DNA from: Acholeplasmatales bacterium | GTDB lineage: Bacteria; Bacillota_I; Bacilli_A; Acholeplasmatales; JAEDCM01 | Reading direction: 5' to 3' | Assembly (NCBI GenBank): GCA_017961685.1 | Contig: JAGCWW010000063.1 | Coordinates: 1-64,000, forward strand | DNA length: 64,000 bases | Shown here: positions 1 to 24,950 of the stretch, one piece after another | How positions within the stretch are numbered: position 1 is the stretch's first letter | How the letters are laid out: every line of letters begins with the position of its first letter | Notes under the pieces: generated by a model | Databases searched by the model: none | Seen by the model: the letters and a program-made list of their open reading frames with translations, nothing else | Told to the model about the DNA's origin: nothing | Translations under genes and position numbers: made by a program

Positions 1-1184
1 ATAATTTGTTCAATTGCTTTAAATGATGCATCAATTGGACCATCACCATAAGCAATACCAAATAATTCAGTATTTCCTTTAAGTATTGTTACAGTTGAAG
101 TAGATTTAATCTTATTTCCACTGTTGATTACAAAGTTATCTAATTTATAAGTTTGAGGAACTTGCATTGCGACATTTGCAATAATTACATCAAGTTCTTT
201 TAATTTGATTTGAGCTTTCTTATTAACTGTATTTAAGAATGCTTCATAAACAGCATTTTGATCACTTACTGATAGGTCATAACCTAAAGTTTTAATGATG
301 TCATTTAATTCTTCTTCTTTAACATTCTTATCAAGTAATTTAACATCAGTTACTGTTTGACTAGATGTAATAGGTTGATTTAAGGAATCATGATCATTTT
401 TAATATCAGTGATTAAATCTTTAACCTTAGTTGCATCTACATTCATTTCAAACTTATATTTGTTTCCTAAAGTTTTAACGATTTGACAAATATCTTCTAG
501 CTTTGGAAGTTCTTCACCAAATACTGTTGTTTTTACATAATCAACATTATTAATAGATGAAATAACTGATGCACTAGCAAGTGATAAGCTATTTGAACAA
601 CCAATACCAAATTTCTTAGTTTTTGTATTATCTTTTAAAGTCTTAACAAAGTCATTAAATTCGTTAGGTAAGGCAATTCCAGCACTATCCATAACTGAAA
701 CATAATCAGCTTCGCTAGCAGCATTAATAGCATCAATTAGATACCTATTTTCTGCACGAGTAGCATCTAAGAAGATAGCTTCTACTAAGACATTTAAGCC
801 TTTAGCATAGCTAATTAATTCTTTGATTGTTTCAATCATCTTTTCAGGTTTTTTGTGGTATAAGTATTCCATTTGCATTACTGTAGATGGGAATTCAATA
901 GCAATAATACCACCCTTACTATTTTTAACTACATCATATGCTAAATCAATTGATTCTTTTGTAGCTTTTGCACTACAACTAATCTTTGAGTTTTTAATGA
1001 ATGTTGAAATAGTTCTAAATAATATAGAATCTGTTTTAGGATCATCTACTGGTCCTACACCGATAATATCTACTTTGAGGTCATCTAAATGCCTAGCTAC
1101 ATTCAGCTTTTCTTTGAAACTCATTTCTAATGTTTTTCCTGTTAAATTTTTTCTTAAAGTTTCATCGCAAATAATTACTTTCAT
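1..1184 (-). CDS. 2-isopropylmalate/citramalate synthase-like protein, 3' end beyond window
   Basis: Translation from ATG 1184 runs about 394 aa without a stop to the window edge, so the C-terminus is missing. GGAGG 8 nt upstream supports the start. The fold is a DRE-TIM metallolyase: D7-E-T-L-R11 at the N-terminus, IFLDATR matching the family's AEDATR, and DSAGIALP matching DTVGYTTP. The C-terminal LeuA-dimer (allosteric) domain is clear, including GDGPIDASFKAI. The family condenses acetyl-CoA with a 2-oxoacid. Here the metal-binding HCHNDLG motif reads G195-C-S197-N-S-L-S, so both histidines are lost, and DG after TLR is KN. Catalysis is therefore doubtful; a regulatory or altered role is inferred. 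It is the last visible gene of the T-box-led operon with the acyl-CoA synthetase. Confidence 0.8.
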   Translation of the reverse strand, partial: MKVIICDETLRKNLTGKTLEMSFKEKLNVARHLDDLKVDIIGVGPVDDPKTDSILFRTISTFIKNSKISCSAKATKESIDLAYDVVKNSKGGIIAIEFPSTVMQMEYLYHKKPEKMIETIKELISYAKGLNVLVEAIFLDATRAENRYLIDAINAASEADYVSVMDSAGIALPNEFNDFVKTLKDNTKTKKFGIGCSNSLSLASASVISSINNVDYVKTTVFGEELPKLEDICQIVKTLGNKYKFEMNVDATKVKDLITDIKNDHDSLNQPITSSQTVTDVKLLDKNVKEEELNDIIKTLGYDLSVSDQNAVYEAFLNTVNKKAQIKLKELDVIIANVAMQVPQTYKLDNFVINSGNKIKSTSTVTILKGNTELFGIAYGDGPIDASFKAIEQI

Positions 1185-1208: not shown

Positions 1209-2003
1209 TTACAAATTAAGTAATTTTTTTATATTTAAGCCTAAGATTTTTTCTTTTTCCTCATCTGTTAAATCTAGGGCGTTAAACCTTTCTAGTTCTT
1301 CTTTTGCATCCCACATTGGATAATCAGTTCCAAAGAAGAATTTATCTACACCAAATGTTCTTATCAATTGGTTAGCCTTATATGGCTCTAAAAAGTATAG
1401 TGATGATGATGTATCAAAATATACATTATCATATTTTAAATCTTTATATTGAATTGCATTACCCCAAGTAGAGTAACCTCCAAAATGGGCTGCAATACAT
1501 TTTAAGTCTTTAAAAGTATTAGCAACTCTTACTAATCTTTCTTGACTTGAATAATCATATCTTTTATCACCCATATGGAATAATATAGGTAATTTTCCAC
1601 TAGCATTCTTATAGATTTTAAATACCTTTGGATCATCTATATAAAACTTTTGAAAATCAGGATGAAGTTTAATACCTTTAAAATCATTATCTAAAGCATA
1701 TTTTATTTCATCAATGATTTCACTTTCTTCCATATCAGGATGAAGTGTAATAAAACCTATTAATTCAGGATGTTTAGTTTTTTCATCATTTATAAATGTA
1801 TTAATTGAATGAACTTGATGTGGGGTAGTGGCTACGGAGTGCACTAGAAAACGTGACACTCCAGCCTTTTTTCCTTCACTTAATAGTCCTTCAACTGTGC
1901 CTACATAGTTCATATCAATTCCATAAAAATCACCAATTGCTTTACTTGCTTTTTCGGCTATTTTCTCTGGATAAATATGAGCATGTGCATCAATTATTTC
2001 CAT
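1209..2003 (-). CDS. amidohydrolase family (Amidohydro_2) metal-dependent hydrolase
   Basis: 264 aa, the usual size for the ACMS-decarboxylase-like amidohydrolase-2 family. The N-terminal metal motif is D-A-H-A-H (residues 5-9). Further ligands are probably the H in LFHMGD, the H in AAHFGG, and the D in FGTDYPMW near the C-terminus. It is a predicted cytosolic TIM-barrel hydrolase or decarboxylase; the substrate cannot be read from sequence. It starts 8 nt after the acyl-CoA synthetase stop and is followed 24 nt later by the IPMS-like gene, so the three genes look co-transcribed. The pairing suggests it acts on an acyl or carboxylate intermediate of the same pathway (inference). Confidence 0.85.
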   Translation of the reverse strand: MEIIDAHAHIYPEKIAEKASKAIGDFYGIDMNYVGTVEGLLSEGKKAGVSRFLVHSVATTPHQVHSINTFINDEKTKHPELIGFITLHPDMEESEIIDEIKYALDNDFKGIKLHPDFQKFYIDDPKVFKIYKNASGKLPILFHMGDKRYDYSSQERLVRVANTFKDLKCIAAHFGGYSTWGNAIQYKDLKYDNVYFDTSSSLYFLEPYKANQLIRTFGVDKFFFGTDYPMWDAKEELERFNALDLTDEEKEKILGLNIKKLLNL

Positions 2004-2011
2004 AGGATCAC

Positions 2012-4330
2012 CTACTTATTTCCCATTTTTCTTAAATCTGTACGTTTAATCTTTCCACTAATTGTCTTTGGTAATTCATCGAAGAATTCAACGATTCTTG
2101 GATATTTATAAGGTGCTGTATTAGTCTTAACATATTGTTGAATTTCTTTCTTTAAATCTTCTGTCTTTTCTTTACCAGGAACTAATACGATATTAGCTTT
2201 TACAACTTGACCACGGATTGGATCAGGTGCACCTGTAACAGCACATTCTAAGACATATGGTAATTCCATGATGACACTTTCAATTTCAAATGGCCCAATA
2301 CGATATCCACTTGATTTGATTACATCATCAATTCTACCTACATACCAATAATATCCATTTTCATCATGCCATGCAGTATCACCTGTATGATACATATTAT
2401 CATGCCATGCTTCTTTTGTCTTTTCTTCGTTTCTATAATATTCTTTGAATAATCCACATGGGATTCTCTTATCAGTTCTGATGATGATTTCACCAGTTTC
2501 ACCGTCTTTACAAGGGTTACCTTCTAAATCTACGATATCTACATCATATAAAGGTGATGGTTTACCCATTGAACCTCTAACGATTGTTGCACCAACAAAG
2601 TTACCAACAACTGCTGTTGTTTCAGTTTGACCAAATGCTTCTACTAAGTTAATACCTGTTGCTTTAATCCATTGTGAATAAACTTCAGGGTTTAGTGCTT
2701 CACCTGCGATAGCAGCATATCTAACTGATGATAAATCATATTTTGATAGATCTTCTTTGATGAAGAATCTATAAATTGTTGGAGGTGCACAGAATGTTGT
2801 AATATCATACTTAGCAAACATTGGTAGGACATTAGAACTTTCAAACTTATCGAAGTCATATGTGAATACTCCTGCTTCACATAACCATTGTCCATAAAGT
2901 TTACCCCATAGTGATTTACCCCAACCAGTTTCACTCATTGTGAAATGTAATCCATCAGGTACAACATTTTGCCAGTACTTAGCTGTAATGAAATGTCCTA
3001 GTGGATACTTATGTGAGTGAGCTGTAAGCTTTGGATTTCCTGTTGTTCCACTTGTGAAAAACATTACCATGTAGTCATTTCCACATGCTGAGTCTGCTTT
3101 TCTATCATATACATCAGAGAACTTAACAAATTCATTATTATAATCATGCCATCCAGCAGGGATTGGATCATTTACAGTAGTTGCACAAACCTTAATTAGC
3201 TTGCATCCTACTTCCTTTTCTGCTTCATCAATTCTATCAGTTACATCATCATCGTCTGTAGCAACAATTGCTTTTACGCTAGCTGCTTTAAATCTATATA
3301 CATAGTCATGAACCATTAATAGGTTTGTTGCAGGAATGGCGATTGCTCCAATTTTGTGTAGAGCCATCATTGCATACCAGAAATGATAGTGTCTCTTTAA
3401 TACTAACATTACTGTATCACCTTTTTTGATACCTAGAGATTCAAAATAGTTTGCAGTCATTGATGAATATCTTGAGATATCATTAAAAGTGAATGTTCTT
3501 TCATTAAAGTTTTTATCTACATATAACATTGCTCTTTTATTAGGCTTAGTTTTACCTAATTCATCTACGATATCAAAAGCAAAGTTAAACTTATCTTCAT
3601 TCTTAAATGAAATACCGTTGATGATTCCTTTTTCATCTAGTGTTGTACTAATCCATTTATCAGCAATTGGATCTTTAATATGAGCTGCATCTGTATTAGT
3701 TAATGAAGAAGTTTGTGTAATACGCTTCATACTAGCTAAACCTGACTTATCAGGATCCATTACAAAGGCATAGAATACTAAGTCTTCATCACCTAGAGCT
3801 AATTCATCATGAGGAATAGATGAATCATGATAAATTGTATCTCCTTCATGAAGGATTTCTACTTGGTCTCCAATAACCTTCTTCATTGTACCTTTAACAA
3901 CGATATTTAATTCTTGGCCTCTATGAGTAACCATTTTTCTTGGTCCCATTAAAGCTTCTTCTCTATATGGGATAGTAACTAAGAAAGGCTCAACTAAACG
4001 ATTTTTGAATAATGGAGCTAAGTGTTCATAAACAACACCATGCTTACCATAGATATTCATTCCGTCTTCCTTTCTAGTTAATGTGTAATCTGCAAGTTTA
4101 GGTGTTCTACCGTCAATAATAGCTGTAATCTCAATGTTGCAAATTCTTGCAAATTTGTAGATGAAAGAGAATGTGATGTCACTTCTACCTTCTTCTAGTG
4201 CTTGATAATCTTCTAAGTCCATATCAGTCATAGCTGCTACTTCTTTATCAGATAGGCCGCAGTCTTCTCTAACAGACTTGATTCTACAAGCGATGTCTTC
4301 AATTTCTTTTGTTAGTTTGTTGATAATCAT
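2012..4330 (-). CDS. XRE-cupin-AMP-dependent acyl-CoA synthetase fusion
   Basis: 772 aa with three parts. Residues ~10-75 are an XRE-type helix-turn-helix. Residues ~105-205 are a cupin (motifs THRGQELN and HEGDTIYHDSSIPH). Residues ~240-770 are a full ANL acyl-CoA synthetase with the phosphate loop TSGTTGNPK (~426-434), AFGQTET, YHTGDTAW, GRIDDVIKSSGYRIG and the C-terminal catalytic-lysine region PKTISGKIKR. The family activates a carboxylic acid to acyl-AMP and then acyl-CoA; the closest resemblance is to medium-chain or aryl acyl-CoA synthetases. XRE-cupin proteins are normally separate regulators, so this chain could both sense a ligand and catalyse. A T-box leader with an apparent AUC (Ile) specifier lies directly upstream, suggesting a branched-chain acid substrate (inference). 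Confidence 0.88.
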   Translation of the reverse strand: MIINKLTKEIEDIACRIKSVREDCGLSDKEVAAMTDMDLEDYQALEEGRSDITFSFIYKFARICNIEITAIIDGRTPKLADYTLTRKEDGMNIYGKHGVVYEHLAPLFKNRLVEPFLVTIPYREEALMGPRKMVTHRGQELNIVVKGTMKKVIGDQVEILHEGDTIYHDSSIPHDELALGDEDLVFYAFVMDPDKSGLASMKRITQTSSLTNTDAAHIKDPIADKWISTTLDEKGIINGISFKNEDKFNFAFDIVDELGKTKPNKRAMLYVDKNFNERTFTFNDISRYSSMTANYFESLGIKKGDTVMLVLKRHYHFWYAMMALHKIGAIAIPATNLLMVHDYVYRFKAASVKAIVATDDDDVTDRIDEAEKEVGCKLIKVCATTVNDPIPAGWHDYNNEFVKFSDVYDRKADSACGNDYMVMFFTSGTTGNPKLTAHSHKYPLGHFITAKYWQNVVPDGLHFTMSETGWGKSLWGKLYGQWLCEAGVFTYDFDKFESSNVLPMFAKYDITTFCAPPTIYRFFIKEDLSKYDLSSVRYAAIAGEALNPEVYSQWIKATGINLVEAFGQTETTAVVGNFVGATIVRGSMGKPSPLYDVDIVDLEGNPCKDGETGEIIIRTDKRIPCGLFKEYYRNEEKTKEAWHDNMYHTGDTAWHDENGYYWYVGRIDDVIKSSGYRIGPFEIESVIMELPYVLECAVTGAPDPIRGQVVKANIVLVPGKEKTEDLKKEIQQYVKTNTAPYKYPRIVEFFDELPKTISGKIKRTDLRKMGNK

Positions 4331-4370: not shown

Positions 4371-4402
4371 AAAAAAGCCGTCTCAATTATCATGAGACGA
4401 GC
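4371..4402 (-). terminator. T-box attenuator hairpin before the acyl-CoA synthetase
   Basis: On the minus strand, CGTCTCA and TGAGACG form a strong stem followed by GGC and a T run. It sits just after the T-box GTGGTACCGCG element and about 40 nt before the start codon, which is where the regulated terminator of a T-box leader should be. Confidence 0.85.
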
Positions 4403-4632
4403 TAAAACCCGCGGTACCACTCAATTTATGTATTTATATACATCTCTTCAGGATCCATCAATCCCTTTGCTTTAACGCAGCATTACGGAGTTCCCTAATA
4501 GATATCGTTCAGAAACCCTACTCAAAAGCGATGGCTAATTGAATGACTCCTCGCTAATTTACACCAACCATTAGCTCTCTATAGATTTATCATTCTAGCG
4601 TCTTTATCACGGCATTTACTATATATATACTA
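4403..4632 (-). promoter_or_regulatory. T-box leader, probable isoleucine specifier (AUC)
   Basis: Minus-strand landmarks in order are AGAGAG, GGTTGGTGTAAA, the specifier region CCATCGCTTTTGAG, GGTTTCTGAACG, and GAGTGGTACCGCGGG (the T-box proper), followed by the attenuator hairpin. Aligning the specifier region with the valS T-box in this same window (GTAGCTTTGGAG) puts ATC in the specifier position (ATCGCTTTTGAG), i.e. Ile. Uncharged tRNA-Ile would then allow read-through into the XRE-cupin-acyl-CoA synthetase operon. T-box identity is near certain; the amino acid is well supported but rests on manual alignment. Confidence 0.9.
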
Positions 4633-14800: not shown

Positions 14801-14888
14801 ATATGCACACCTCCTTCTAAAATTTAAGACACGCCATTAAGGTAGCTCTTGCATTTATAACCTCTTTTGTGCGGTTGCATACTGCAAC
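14801..14888 (-). ncRNA. L21 leader (5' UTR regulatory structure)
   Basis: About 88 nt lie between the predicted start site and rplU. The minus strand contains a TTGCAGTATGCAA hairpin, then CCGCACAAAAGAGGTTAT, then GCAAGAGCTACCTTAATGGC. Position and the AGAGGU/GAGCUACCU-type conserved segments match my memory of the Rfam L21_leader of Bacillota, which is thought to be an autoregulatory L21-binding element. The assignment needs a covariance-model check. Confidence 0.65.
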
Positions 14889-20692: not shown

Positions 20693-21622
20693 CTATTTTT
20701 TGAAAAAACTTCTTATATCTTTAACAAAAAATTTATTTCCAATAATAACTAAAATTGCCTCAATTTTTGCGTTATTAATGATATCTTTAATCTCTTCATT
20801 CTCTTTTATTAAGTAATTTGGATTAAATTCTTCATTATTTGAAATAGTTATTATATCCCTTTCAGTTATTTTCTTTAACTCATCTAAATAATAATTATAG
20901 TCATCAAGATTAAACGCTAAATGTAGAATAACTCTAGGGTTAAAATTAACTCTTTCAGATATAAAGTTAGAATCTAAATCATTAATAATTTTTTTAATCT
21001 TTTTTTGTTTTATCTCAGGATAAAAATCTTCTAAAAACTTAAGAGCTAAACAGTAAGAATATGCGCTAAATGAGCCATAATTTGGCACATCATAGTCTAA
21101 GTTATTATAACTAAAACTACATAATTCACTCTTATATAAATATAAGTCTTTAGGATCTATTTTACTATAAGAATAATCACCATTATAACCATTAAATAGG
21201 TAGTGATTATATTCAATATCCTTAATAAAACTAAAAGAATCATCAACGATTATTATTGGAGCTTTTTGTTCCCTAAAGAAGTTTAGTCCAGCTAAAAATA
21301 ATGCTTCATAATAACTAATCTCTAAATTATTTTCTTCTGCTATTGTTTTAATACAGCCTAAGTGAAAATCTAGAGATTCTTTATCTATACTTCTATTTTT
21401 ATAACTTATTATATTTTCTAAATCTTCACTAAATAAAATTACTCCAGCATTAAATTTTTTAATATTAAGGACTTCTTTTAATGTAGTAATAGTGGTAACC
21501 CTATAAGAATTACCACTAACACATATCTTTATTTGGTTTTTAAAATCTATCTCTAAAACTTCCAAGAATTTTACTACATTATTAGTTATATCCTTTTTTA
21601 AACTATTTAACCAATTAAGCAT
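20693..21622 (-). CDS. FolC-like (folylpolyglutamate synthase) degenerate protein
   Basis: 309 aa versus about 420-440 for FolC. The position directly after valS, overlapping it by 8 nt, is the classic valS-folC arrangement of Bacillota. The outline survives: YYEALFLAGLNFFREQKAPIIIVDDSF matches the family's FE..TALAF.YF....D..V.EVG, and NPRVILHLAFNLDDYNYYLDEL matches R.P.VILDGAHNP.....L. All catalytic motifs are gone: the ATP loop GTNGKGS reads GNSYRVTT (~36-43), the GLGGRLDATN region is absent and DGAHN reads HLAFN. It cannot be a normal ATP-dependent ligase. It is either decaying or a pseudoenzyme; the intact ORF argues for retention. Confidence 0.75.
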   Translation of the reverse strand: MLNWLNSLKKDITNNVVKFLEVLEIDFKNQIKICVSGNSYRVTTITTLKEVLNIKKFNAGVILFSEDLENIISYKNRSIDKESLDFHLGCIKTIAEENNLEISYYEALFLAGLNFFREQKAPIIIVDDSFSFIKDIEYNHYLFNGYNGDYSYSKIDPKDLYLYKSELCSFSYNNLDYDVPNYGSFSAYSYCLALKFLEDFYPEIKQKKIKKIINDLDSNFISERVNFNPRVILHLAFNLDDYNYYLDELKKITERDIITISNNEEFNPNYLIKENEEIKDIINNAKIEAILVIIGNKFFVKDIRSFFKK

Positions 21623-24194
21623 TTAAGGATGCTAATCTTTCCTTTAGCGAATTGTATTGTTCTGTATAAGCTTTTAACTTATCTCTTTCGCTATTAACTT
21701 TAGCTTCTGGAGCTTTATTAGTGAAATTAGGATTATTAAGCATATTAGTACATCTTTCAATTTCTGATGCTAGATGTGCTAATTCTTTTTCAATTTTAGC
21801 TCTTTCTTCTTCTACATTGACTAAATCAGTAGTCTTAATGTAAACCTTGAAATCTAGCTTATGGAATACTTGATAATCACCTTCAGGATCGTTATTAGTT
21901 ACATTAATATCACCGCAGTTAGTGAATCTCTTAATGTAATTAGATAATTTGATAATTGAGTTCTTAACCTCATCATTATTAGTTTGGAAGATGAAGTTTA
22001 ATTCTTTACTCATTGGTTTATTATTATCATTTCTAATTGTTCTAATTAAAGTGATTAATTCAAATAATCTATCGATTTCAGTTAAATCGCCACATACGTT
22101 ATTAGCCTTTGGCCAAGCATCAACTGAAATGGATGCACACTTATGAGGGATTTGTTGGTAAATTTCTTCAGTTACAAATGGCATAAATGGATGTAATAAC
22201 TTTAATATTGCATCTAATACATATAATAATACATGCTTTGTATTTGTATTATTTTCTTGTAAATCAACCTTTGTAATTTCGATATATTTACTTGCGAAAT
22301 CATCCCATACGAAGTTATATAAGTCTTTAGAAACTAGACCAAATTCATATTTATCATAGTTCTTATCAACTTCATTAATTAAGTTATTTAACTTAGTTAT
22401 AATCCATGTTGCTGATTCGTTTAAGTTATTGAAATCAACATTAATTTCTTTAATATCTTCTGTATTCATTAGAATATAACGGCTTATATTCCAAATCTTA
22501 TTGATATAATTCCATCCAGCTTCTACTTTTTCTGTATCAAATCTTAAATCCATTCCTGGAGCAGAGTTAGAAGTTAAGAAGAAACGTAGGGAGTCACATC
22601 CATATTGATCAATAACATCCATAGGGTCAACTCCATTACCTAGAGATTTACTCATCTTTTTACCGTTCTTATCTCTAATTAAACCATGAATTAGACAATC
22701 CTTAAATGGACGTTCTTTCATAAATTCAAGTCCTTGGAATACCATTCTACATACCCAGAAGAAAATGATGTCATATCCAGTAACTAGACAGTCAGTTGGA
22801 TAGAATCTCTTTAATAACTCTGTATTATCTGGCCAACCAAGTGTTGCGAATGGCCATAAAGCAGATGAGAACCAAGTATCAAGTACATCATTATCTTGCA
22901 CCCAACCATCACCTGGGCATTCTACTTGTACCTTAATTTCTTCACCCTTATACCATGCAGGAATTCTATGACCCCACCAAAGTTGACGTGAGATACACCA
23001 ATCATGGCAATCTTCCATCCAGTGATTTAAAATCTTTTCAAATCTTTGAGGATAGAAATTAACCTTCTTATCTTCATCTTTTTGATTTTCTAAAACGTTA
23101 TTTGCTAGTTCATCCATCTTAACAAACCATTGTTTTGATAAGTATGGTTCAACCATTACACCTGTACGTTCAGAATGTCCTACGCTATGGATAATTGGCT
23201 CAATTTTAATTAGAATTCCTGATTCAGTTAAATCATCAACTAATTGTTCTCTACAATCAAATCTATCCATTCCATTATATTTACCTGTAAGTTCATTCAT
23301 TGTTCCATCAGGATTCATTACTTTTACTCTTGGTAAGTTATGACGATTTCCTACTTCGTAGTCATTAGGGTCATGTGCTGGTGTGATTTTAACTACACCT
23401 GTACCAAATGTAGGATCAGCATGTTCATCTCCAACAATTGGAATCTTTTTATTGATAACTGGTAGAATAACATTTTTACCAATTAAATGCTTATATCTTT
23501 CATCATCTGGGTTAACAGCTACGGCTGTATCACCAAATAAAGTTTCAGGACGAGTTGTAGCAACCTCTAAGTAATCTTCAGTTCCTTCAATATAATACTT
23601 TAAGTGATAGAAAGCACCTTGAATATCTTTATAAATTACTTCTTCATTTGATAGAGCTGTTTGACTTACTGGATCCCAGTTAATAATCTTTTCGCCTCTA
23701 TAAATAAAGCCTTTGTTATAGAAATCAATAAATACTTTTTCTACACCCTTCTTTAAGCCTTCATCTAGAGTAAATCTTTCTTTAGTATAATCTAAAGATA
23801 GACCTAATTTAGCCCATTGTTGTCTAATATTTAAGGCATATTCTTCTTTCCATTCCCAAGCTTTCTTTAAGAAACCTTCTCTTCCTAGTTCATATTTATT
23901 AATACCTTCAGCCTTTAATTTATTAACAACCTTAACTTCAGTTGCGATAGCTGCATGGTCCATACCAGGTAGCCATAATGTGTCAAAGCCTTGCATTCTT
24001 TTACGTCTAATGATGATATCTTGTAGTGTAGTATCCCAAGCATGACCTAAATGTAATTTACCTGTTACATTTGGTGGTGGAATAACAATACAAAAATGAT
24101 CTTTACTCTTATCACCAGAATTAAAGAATCCTCCTTTTAGCCAGAAATCATATTTATTTTCTTCAACTTTTTTGTGATCATACTTATTTTCCAT
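21615..24194 (-). CDS. valS: valyl-tRNA synthetase
   Basis: 859 aa. Class I motifs: PPPNVTGKLHLGHAW (HIGH) and KKMSKSLGNGVDP (KMSKS). It also has editing-domain segments (VATTRPETLFGDTAVAVNP), the anticodon-binding domain and a C-terminal coiled-coil arm (~790-859) typical of ValRS. It charges tRNA-Val. A GTA-specifier T-box lies upstream of the GNAT gene that precedes it by 2 nt, so GNAT and valS share Val-responsive control. Confidence 0.98.
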   Translation of the reverse strand: MENKYDHKKVEENKYDFWLKGGFFNSGDKSKDHFCIVIPPPNVTGKLHLGHAWDTTLQDIIIRRKRMQGFDTLWLPGMDHAAIATEVKVVNKLKAEGINKYELGREGFLKKAWEWKEEYALNIRQQWAKLGLSLDYTKERFTLDEGLKKGVEKVFIDFYNKGFIYRGEKIINWDPVSQTALSNEEVIYKDIQGAFYHLKYYIEGTEDYLEVATTRPETLFGDTAVAVNPDDERYKHLIGKNVILPVINKKIPIVGDEHADPTFGTGVVKITPAHDPNDYEVGNRHNLPRVKVMNPDGTMNELTGKYNGMDRFDCREQLVDDLTESGILIKIEPIIHSVGHSERTGVMVEPYLSKQWFVKMDELANNVLENQKDEDKKVNFYPQRFEKILNHWMEDCHDWCISRQLWWGHRIPAWYKGEEIKVQVECPGDGWVQDNDVLDTWFSSALWPFATLGWPDNTELLKRFYPTDCLVTGYDIIFFWVCRMVFQGLEFMKERPFKDCLIHGLIRDKNGKKMSKSLGNGVDPMDVIDQYGCDSLRFFLTSNSAPGMDLRFDTEKVEAGWNYINKIWNISRYILMNTEDIKEINVDFNNLNESATWIITKLNNLINEVDKNYDKYEFGLVSKDLYNFVWDDFASKYIEITKVDLQENNTNTKHVLLYVLDAILKLLHPFMPFVTEEIYQQIPHKCASISVDAWPKANNVCGDLTEIDRLFELITLIRTIRNDNNKPMSKELNFIFQTNNDEVKNSIIKLSNYIKRFTNCGDINVTNNDPEGDYQVFHKLDFKVYIKTTDLVNVEEERAKIEKELAHLASEIERCTNMLNNPNFTNKAPEAKVNSERDKLKAYTEQYNSLKERLASLNA

Positions 24195-24732: not shown

Positions 24733-24753
24733 AACGTCCATTTTAAGGACGTT
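24733..24753 (-). terminator. T-box attenuator hairpin before GNAT-valS
   Basis: Minus-strand AACGTCC/GGACGTT stem followed by TTTTCTTTTTT, directly after the T-box sequence. Confidence 0.88.
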
Positions 24754-24944
24754 ATTAACGCGGTACCACCTTAATTCTAGTTTTACCTAGCACTATTATC
24801 CTTAACGCAGAATTACGTTTATATTTACTATTATTTCAATATAAAAGCTCCAAAGCTACCTTCAATAATCATAATTAAAACTTTTCACCAACCAGTTTTT
24901 CTCTAAATAATTACTAATTATTTACTCCTCTTTATCTTTGCTAC
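24754..24944 (-). promoter_or_regulatory. T-box leader, valine specifier (GUA)
   Basis: Minus strand: AGAG, ACTGGTTGGTGAAAAG, specifier region GAAGGTAGCTTTGGAGC, TCTGCGTTAAGG, and AAGGTGGTACCGCGTT (T-box). The specifier codon reads GTA, matching the downstream valS. Confidence 0.95.
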
Positions 24945-24950
24945 ATAAAT

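Follow-up and report, generated by a model that had tools for sequence, protein, structure and literature searches.

A family of 2-isopropylmalate synthase relatives that has lost the active site: putative leucine sensors in branched-chain amino acid operons

The closest described relatives of the proteins reported here are the 2-isopropylmalate synthases (IPMS, LeuA; NCBIfam TIGR00973), whose metal ligands in the Mycobacterium tuberculosis enzyme (MtLeuA, PDB 1sr9 and 3fig) are Asp81, His285 and His287 (PMC5498780). The closest functional parallel is HisZ, the regulatory subunit of the short-form ATP phosphoribosyltransferase HisGS, in which a catalytically dead fold senses an amino acid for another enzyme of that amino acid's synthesis (PMC9734150). 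HisZ descends from an aminoacyl-tRNA synthetase. Acyl-CoA ligases related to those discussed below are represented by MbcS of Staphylococcus aureus, which prefers 2-methylbutyrate and isobutyrate and is poor with isovalerate (PMC10026030). Finally, the formation of leucine by carboxylation of isovalerate is established rumen bacterial physiology (Allison and co-workers, cited in PMC7356843).

The window, i.e. the whole stretch of 64,000 nucleotides of Acholeplasmatales DNA that was analysed, carries an IPMS-like gene that we call pIPMS, a name given here to the clade of IPMS relatives that includes it (Table 1). pIPMS proteins share with LeuA the fold, the domain order, an allosteric domain with the same motifs at its helix starts, and common ancestry. 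However, they lack the HxH motif, the metal Asn, the GER segment and the HEAGIH subdomain I, their linker is about 30 residues shorter, their pattern of conservation is reversed, and they score under every curated LeuA cut-off. The proposal made here resembles HisZ in that a dead enzyme fold would act as an amino-acid-sensing subunit, and the HisZ-like criterion that a clade under purifying selection has lost its catalytic residues is met; on the other hand the fold is unrelated, the amino acid would be leucine and not histidine, and contact with a partner is inferred. By analogy, pIPMS would work most like HisZ, in an unrelated fold and pathway. Among curated models, MbcS comes nearest to the operon's HTH-cupin ligase, which likely uses the same substrates (2-methylbutyrate and isobutyrate), but the operon protein reaches 426 of 850 bits (under the cut-off), has extra HTH and cupin domains, and is inferred to feed amino acid synthesis and not membrane lipids. 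The rumen isovalerate route is the pathway that the operon would encode; classical work on this route was physiological, whereas the pIPMS operon adds candidate genes and a putative leucine-feedback protein. Literature searches found no paper joining IPMS and pseudoenzyme and, with the terms used, none on genes of the reductive carboxylation.

Table 1. Features of the pIPMS operon in the window
Feature	Position	Strand	Basis or remark
T-box leader of the operon, specifier AUC (Ile)	4390..4619	minus	Rfam RF00230, 112.2 bits vs gathering score 93
HTH - cupin - MbcS-like acyl-CoA synthetase, operon gene 1	2012..4330	minus	Pfam, NCBIfam
Amidohydrolase (PF04909, Amidohydrolase_2), operon gene 2, between ligase and pIPMS	1209..2003	minus	Pfam
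pIPMS gene (IPMS-like pseudoenzyme)	3..1184	minus	5' 394 codons; 3' end lost at contig end
DETLRKN, remnant of DTTLRDG	1146..1166	minus	Metal Asp and Arg retained; Asp to Lys, Gly to Asn
GCSNSLS replacing HCHNDLG, both metal-binding His lost	582..602	minus	PDB IPMS alignments
LeuA allosteric (dimerisation) domain, first half (PF08502)	3..209	minus	Pfam
GDGPIDASFKAI, top-conserved allosteric-domain motif, N-terminal end of a helix	12..47	minus	

The open reading frame of pIPMS runs from 1199 to 3 on the minus strand, and its translation includes KKFGIGCSNSLSLASA. Its first in-frame ATG lies at 1199 and its second at 1184. The second is the likely start, as GGAGG lies 8 nt before it and the 85% identical gene of a sister genome uses the matching position. 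About 67 last codons are absent from the assembly, because base 1 of the window is the end of contig C26. A complete copy of 461 aa is found in genome G001, at L037:9247-10632 (85% identical to the window gene), and a partial one in G002 (84% identical), and the altered motif is common to all three. The sister records of the window genome (RUI193, RUI155) are inferred to be rumen-type MAGs, reading the RUI prefix as rumen. Pfam recognises PF00682 (HMGL-like) at residues 7-228 (8.9e-24) and PF08502 (LeuA_dimer) at residues 331-399 (3e-8), the latter truncated by the contig end; the full-length PF08502 match in the complete sister gene reaches 1.5e-30. The nearest NCBIfam models are 2-isopropylmalate synthases, far under cut-off (150.5 bits vs 598.7 bits for TIGR00973).

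A preliminary description of this locus, made from sequence alone, had reported an intact reading frame with a good Shine-Dalgarno sequence, the remainder of the gene lying left of the window. The Shine-Dalgarno sequence held, the frame is cut by the contig end, and the remainder is missing from the assembly. The residue numbers given there (G195 and S197) are correct for a protein initiated at the second ATG. Its reading of HCHNDLG as G-C-S-N-S-L-S, placed within 580-610, held (codons 602-582), as did its reading of TLRDG as TLRKN: alignments with PDB IPMS set HCHNDLG against GCSNSLS. The catalytic loss it described also held and extends further, both in the window protein, which is additionally without the metal Asn and the GER of GERAGN and without the entire subdomain I block HEAGIHQHG, retaining the first metal Asp (CDETLR), and across the whole family. 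An orthologue with intact HxH, which it had named as refuting evidence, was sought among the 55 complete members and found in none.

In the active-site tally, the 55 complete pIPMS were compared with true LeuA (five in one comparison, 23 in another). Neither the first nor the second His is present in any member (0/55 for each), the second being replaced by Ser in 43/55; the metal Asn is found in at most 1/55, and the GER segment is missing in 55/55. The catalytic His/Tyr subdomain I (HEAGIHQHG...TYE) is deleted in 55/55 and present in 23/23 true LeuA, and the linker measures about 92 residues vs 123. The first His, the metal Asn, the Asp of the LRD motif and the Glu of EDATR are each substituted by many different residues, and the Arg of LRD is present in 21/55. 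Retained are the first metal Asp (42/55), the DATR Asp and Arg (55/55) and the DxxG Asp (53/55), possibly for structural reasons or as part of a pocket that still binds something. Without a metal site, a GER segment or the catalytic His/Tyr subdomain, IPMS chemistry is not credible, and pIPMS is very likely dead as an IPMS. On the criteria tested it is related to IPMS by ancestry but falls outside the enzyme family, failing on the metal site, subdomain I, the NCBIfam cut-off and the presence of the leucine/branched-chain amino acid pathway nearby and in the genome; the criterion it meets is the allosteric domain PF08502 with its leucine pocket motifs (87-100% conserved).

Two other explanations were considered and ruled out. 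An alternative alignment that restores the metal ligands, also proposed in the preliminary description as a refutation, does not exist among those made, as the PDB, Pfam and family alignments share one register. Sequencing error or decay is excluded by the identical loss in 55 loci together with the dN/dS values given below. A second, intact leuA is not present in the window's genome (G000), whose only two HMGL-like genes are pIPMS and one for a pyruvate-carboxylase/oxaloacetate-decarboxylase-type protein.

In a scan of named genomes the sole relative found was a distant pIPMS of Christensenella sp. UBA4379, which has 39% identity and likewise lacks HxH. With this protein as query, full-length homologues (E < 1e-90) were identified in about 55 of the 396 genomes sampled from its order, with a clear score gap to ordinary LeuA (~1e-37); a contig-end fragment in genome G689 is additional to these. 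In the window's order, pIPMS occurs in 3/160 genomes, all of the window's own genus, and a phylum-wide sample around Christensenella yielded only one more genome of 379. The search of plasmids returned just ordinary LeuA at ~26% identity and no pIPMS. pIPMS is a family, mainly of Christensenella's order plus the window's genus, and a branch with 100/100 support sets its 56 members (55 complete) apart in the tree. Two sequences from the Christensenella order sample (L091 and L114) form the sister of the window's genus. This suggests, by inference from the tree, that the genus acquired its operon from that group. The deepest members (L098 and L099, of genomes G825 and G973) no longer have HxH but retain EDATR and a portion of NGIGERAGN; they resemble intermediates and may record stepwise loss.

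pIPMS is under purifying selection, with dN/dS of 0.13-0.20 among the three genomes of the window's genus, similar to that of the neighbouring amidohydrolase. This bears on the rival explanation that the gene is a decaying leuA heading for loss. In its favour, the protein is without its catalytic residues and these genomes are without the standard pathway. Against it, the reading frames are intact in 55 loci of two lineages, the allosteric domain is very highly conserved, and dedicated Leu T-boxes precede the genes. The relaxed selection or frequent frameshifts expected of a decaying gene are already contradicted by the dN/dS values and intact frames, and this rival is all but excluded.

The allosteric domain of pIPMS is unusually conserved. 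Mean pairwise identity is 38% in the barrel, 36% in the linker and 65% in the allosteric domain, as opposed to 60%, 57% and 42% in 23 true LeuA (22 of which came from genomes of the same order sample), and the allosteric domain is more conserved than the barrel in 99.8% of pIPMS pairs vs 1.2% of LeuA pairs. An AlphaFold2 model built with 49 family sequences (mean pLDDT 89.7) has a TIM barrel, a helical linker and two bbba units; the PDB structures that match it best are those of MtLeuA, among them the leucine-bound 3fig, at 15% identity and with the domains placed differently. The top-conserved motifs, GDGPID and STDI, lie at the N-terminus of the two bbba-unit helices. Taken alone, the allosteric domain matches LeuA models, whereas citramalate synthase models are weak or absent, and it is LeuA-like and not CimA-like. 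As a sequence search with the family profile failed to reach the regulatory domain of MtLeuA, the leucine pocket was assigned from helix positions and not residue by residue. It is likely that pIPMS binds leucine or a close analogue, although this is inferred and there are no binding data. The preliminary description's observation of a well preserved LeuA-dimer domain held, and its view of selective loss as opposed to decay is supported by the loss in 55 homologues, purifying selection, the reversed conservation and the Leu T-boxes. Of the two functions it offered, a leucine/isoleucine sensor is favoured, with leucine the better (inferred) ligand candidate; an altered lyase remains possible, but variation or deletion affects most positions of the former active site.

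The remainder of the pIPMS operon was not found in the window's own assembly, where just a distant generic ligase matched, and its 3' part was consequently read from G001. The order there is HTH-cupin-MbcS-like ligase, amidohydrolase, pIPMS, SPIE-ligase fusion (a xylose-isomerase-like TIM barrel, SPIE, joined to an AMP-forming acyl-CoA ligase), IlvE, CbiA-like ATPase and VorABC. The aminotransferase is of the branched-chain type (IlvE, 486.5 bits vs NCBIfam cut-off 307) and the oxidoreductase alpha subunit is VorB (545.6 bits vs 399). The CbiA/MinD-like ATPase between IlvE and VorABC (L037:5016-5669, minus strand) is conserved in 17 loci. An amidohydrolase homologue is near pIPMS in 10 of 58 loci and has no role in the proposed pathway.

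The one constant neighbour is the SPIE-ligase fusion, directly downstream of pIPMS in 55/55 scorable loci, with a gap of 20 nt or less, or an overlap, in 52/55. The three of the 58 loci that could not be scored end at contig ends (the window and G002) or have a fragmentary reading frame (L097). IlvE (28 of 58 loci), Vor subunits (16-19) and the HTH-cupin ligase (16) are also found nearby, in varying order. The stable pairing of pIPMS with one active-type enzyme is shown at the level of gene order; physical contact is inferred. The fusion is also found in some genomes without pIPMS, so pIPMS is not required for the ligase as such. Beside pIPMS, the ligase motifs of the fusion are intact in essentially all cases, and its barrel often loses catalytic residues (e.g. 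Glu 33/48, Asp 25/48, His 19/48), although that of G001 (fusion L037:6746-9247) appears intact. A small sample of six fusions or separate barrels without pIPMS retains all of the equivalent Glu, Asp and Glu residues and almost all of the His. It is as if two TIM barrels had turned into scaffolds.

Two further rivals are affected by these observations. Firstly, pIPMS could be a leucine sensor with a target other than the fusion, namely VorABC, IlvE, the HTH-cupin ligases or gene expression. The frequency of VorABC, IlvE and HTH-cupin ligases in pIPMS operons and the existence of the fusion alone in genomes without pIPMS are in keeping with this, but only the fusion adjoins pIPMS in every scorable locus, the others being near in 16-28 of 58, and the loss of catalytic residues from the fusion's barrel next to pIPMS suggests that the two are physically linked; we consider another target unlikely. 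Secondly, the barrel may have been re-purposed to act on a branched-chain intermediate in a new step that needs no metal, leucine feedback being kept. TIM barrels change chemistry easily, and the invariant DATR Asp and Arg, the near-invariant DxxG Asp and the predominance of Ser at the second His agree with such a role. However, the former active-site positions are mostly variable or deleted, the catalytic subdomain is gone, the barrel is the fast-evolving part of pIPMS, the fusion's barrel decays in parallel, and the proposed pathway needs no additional enzyme. This explanation, too, is unlikely. Regulation of the fusion by pIPMS remains, on balance, the inference we prefer.

T-boxes turn genes on when the cognate tRNA is uncharged, i.e. 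in starvation. Rfam places T-boxes ahead of pIPMS in many loci, and with the specifier codon register set by the base pairing on either side of the specifier loop, a Leu codon is read in 29 of the 30 scored (24 CUC, 5 CUG), the exception being an ACA of very low score. T-boxes of HTH-cupin ligases specify Ile (AUC, 10) or Val (GUA, 6). As a control, the T-box of valS in the window (24742-24947, minus strand; valS at 21615-24194) reads GUA (Val). The operon T-box found in the window's genus lies before the HTH-cupin ligase and specifies Ile (AUC), not Leu, and this counts against the leucine reading. Other species have distinct Leu, Ile and Val T-boxes, each leading its own module of the same pathway. 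A ribosomal protein L21 leader (RF00559) was also found in the window (14817-14886, minus strand).

Because T-boxes switch genes on at uncharged tRNA, these operons are taken to serve the supply of the amino acid named by the specifier. The opposite explanation is that the operon degrades branched-chain amino acids, with pIPMS sensing an excess of leucine and switching degradation on. In favour of this, the reactions of IlvE and Vor-type oxidoreductases can in principle run in both directions, and these enzymes also take part in amino acid fermentation. However, raised expression on starvation fits synthesis, AMP-forming ligases spend ATP in making acyl-CoA, and the host genomes are without de novo synthesis; degradation is very unlikely.

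We instead consider it likely that pIPMS bacteria use branched short-chain fatty acids as the starting material for branched-chain amino acids, by way of CoA ligation, VorABC and IlvE. Given the dead site, the kept leucine domain, the Leu-controlled operon and a neighbouring ligase that probably activates branched fatty acids, pIPMS is most likely the sensor for an alternative leucine route. In the proposed mechanism, pIPMS would be made together with the SPIE-ligase fusion and would retain the two-unit allosteric domain in which IPMS binds leucine. When plentiful, leucine would bind pIPMS, and the dead barrel would relay the signal to the fusion by protein contact, leading to less activation of isovalerate to isovaleryl-CoA (feedback control). 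VorABC would reductively carboxylate isovaleryl-CoA to 2-oxoisocaproate, which IlvE would aminate to leucine. The HTH-cupin-MbcS-like ligases under Ile and Val T-boxes would do likewise for 2-methylbutyrate and isobutyrate. The substrate preference of MbcS fits this division, with MbcS-like ligases under Ile/Val T-boxes and another ligase, the fusion, under the Leu T-box. The HTH-cupin parts of these paralogous ligases may possibly sense Ile or Val.

We lean towards the view that pIPMS is a leucine-sensing pseudoenzyme regulating its partner ligase in this pathway, with the reservation that leucine binding, contact with the fusion, the direction and sign of control, and isovalerate as substrate are all inferred, in the absence of binding, complex or activity data. 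A bolder reading, which could as readily prove wrong as right, is that the feedback domain of a lost pathway, carried on a dead enzyme, has been re-attached to an isovalerate-CoA ligase through contact of the pIPMS barrel with a partly dead isomerase-like barrel, such that leucine feeds back on a wholly different route of its own synthesis. A sensor of this kind would clearly exemplify an allosteric domain that survived its enzyme and was handed on to another pathway. The operon represents a candidate gene set, with a putative leucine sensor, for branched-chain amino acids from branched short-chain fatty acids.

The standard pathway is largely absent from the genomes that encode pIPMS. True LeuA above cut-off is found in 1/49 pIPMS genomes vs 22/31 genomes without pIPMS, and IlvC in 2/49 vs 21/31. 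Among the 16 comparison genomes that were not chosen for a LeuA match, LeuA is present in 7 and IlvC in 8 (nominal Fisher p about 1e-4), p-values that are merely indicative given that the genomes are incomplete and related. Annotation likely labels pIPMS as 2-isopropylmalate synthase, so that leucine prototrophy by the standard route would be wrongly predicted in Christensenellales-type gut bacteria. The only pIPMS genome with LeuA over the cut-off is G913 (L091, L139), an exception that weighs against the proposal and that encodes pIPMS plus LeuA and IlvC, with LeuA at a separate, true leuA locus; it is suited to asking if two leucine routes coexist.
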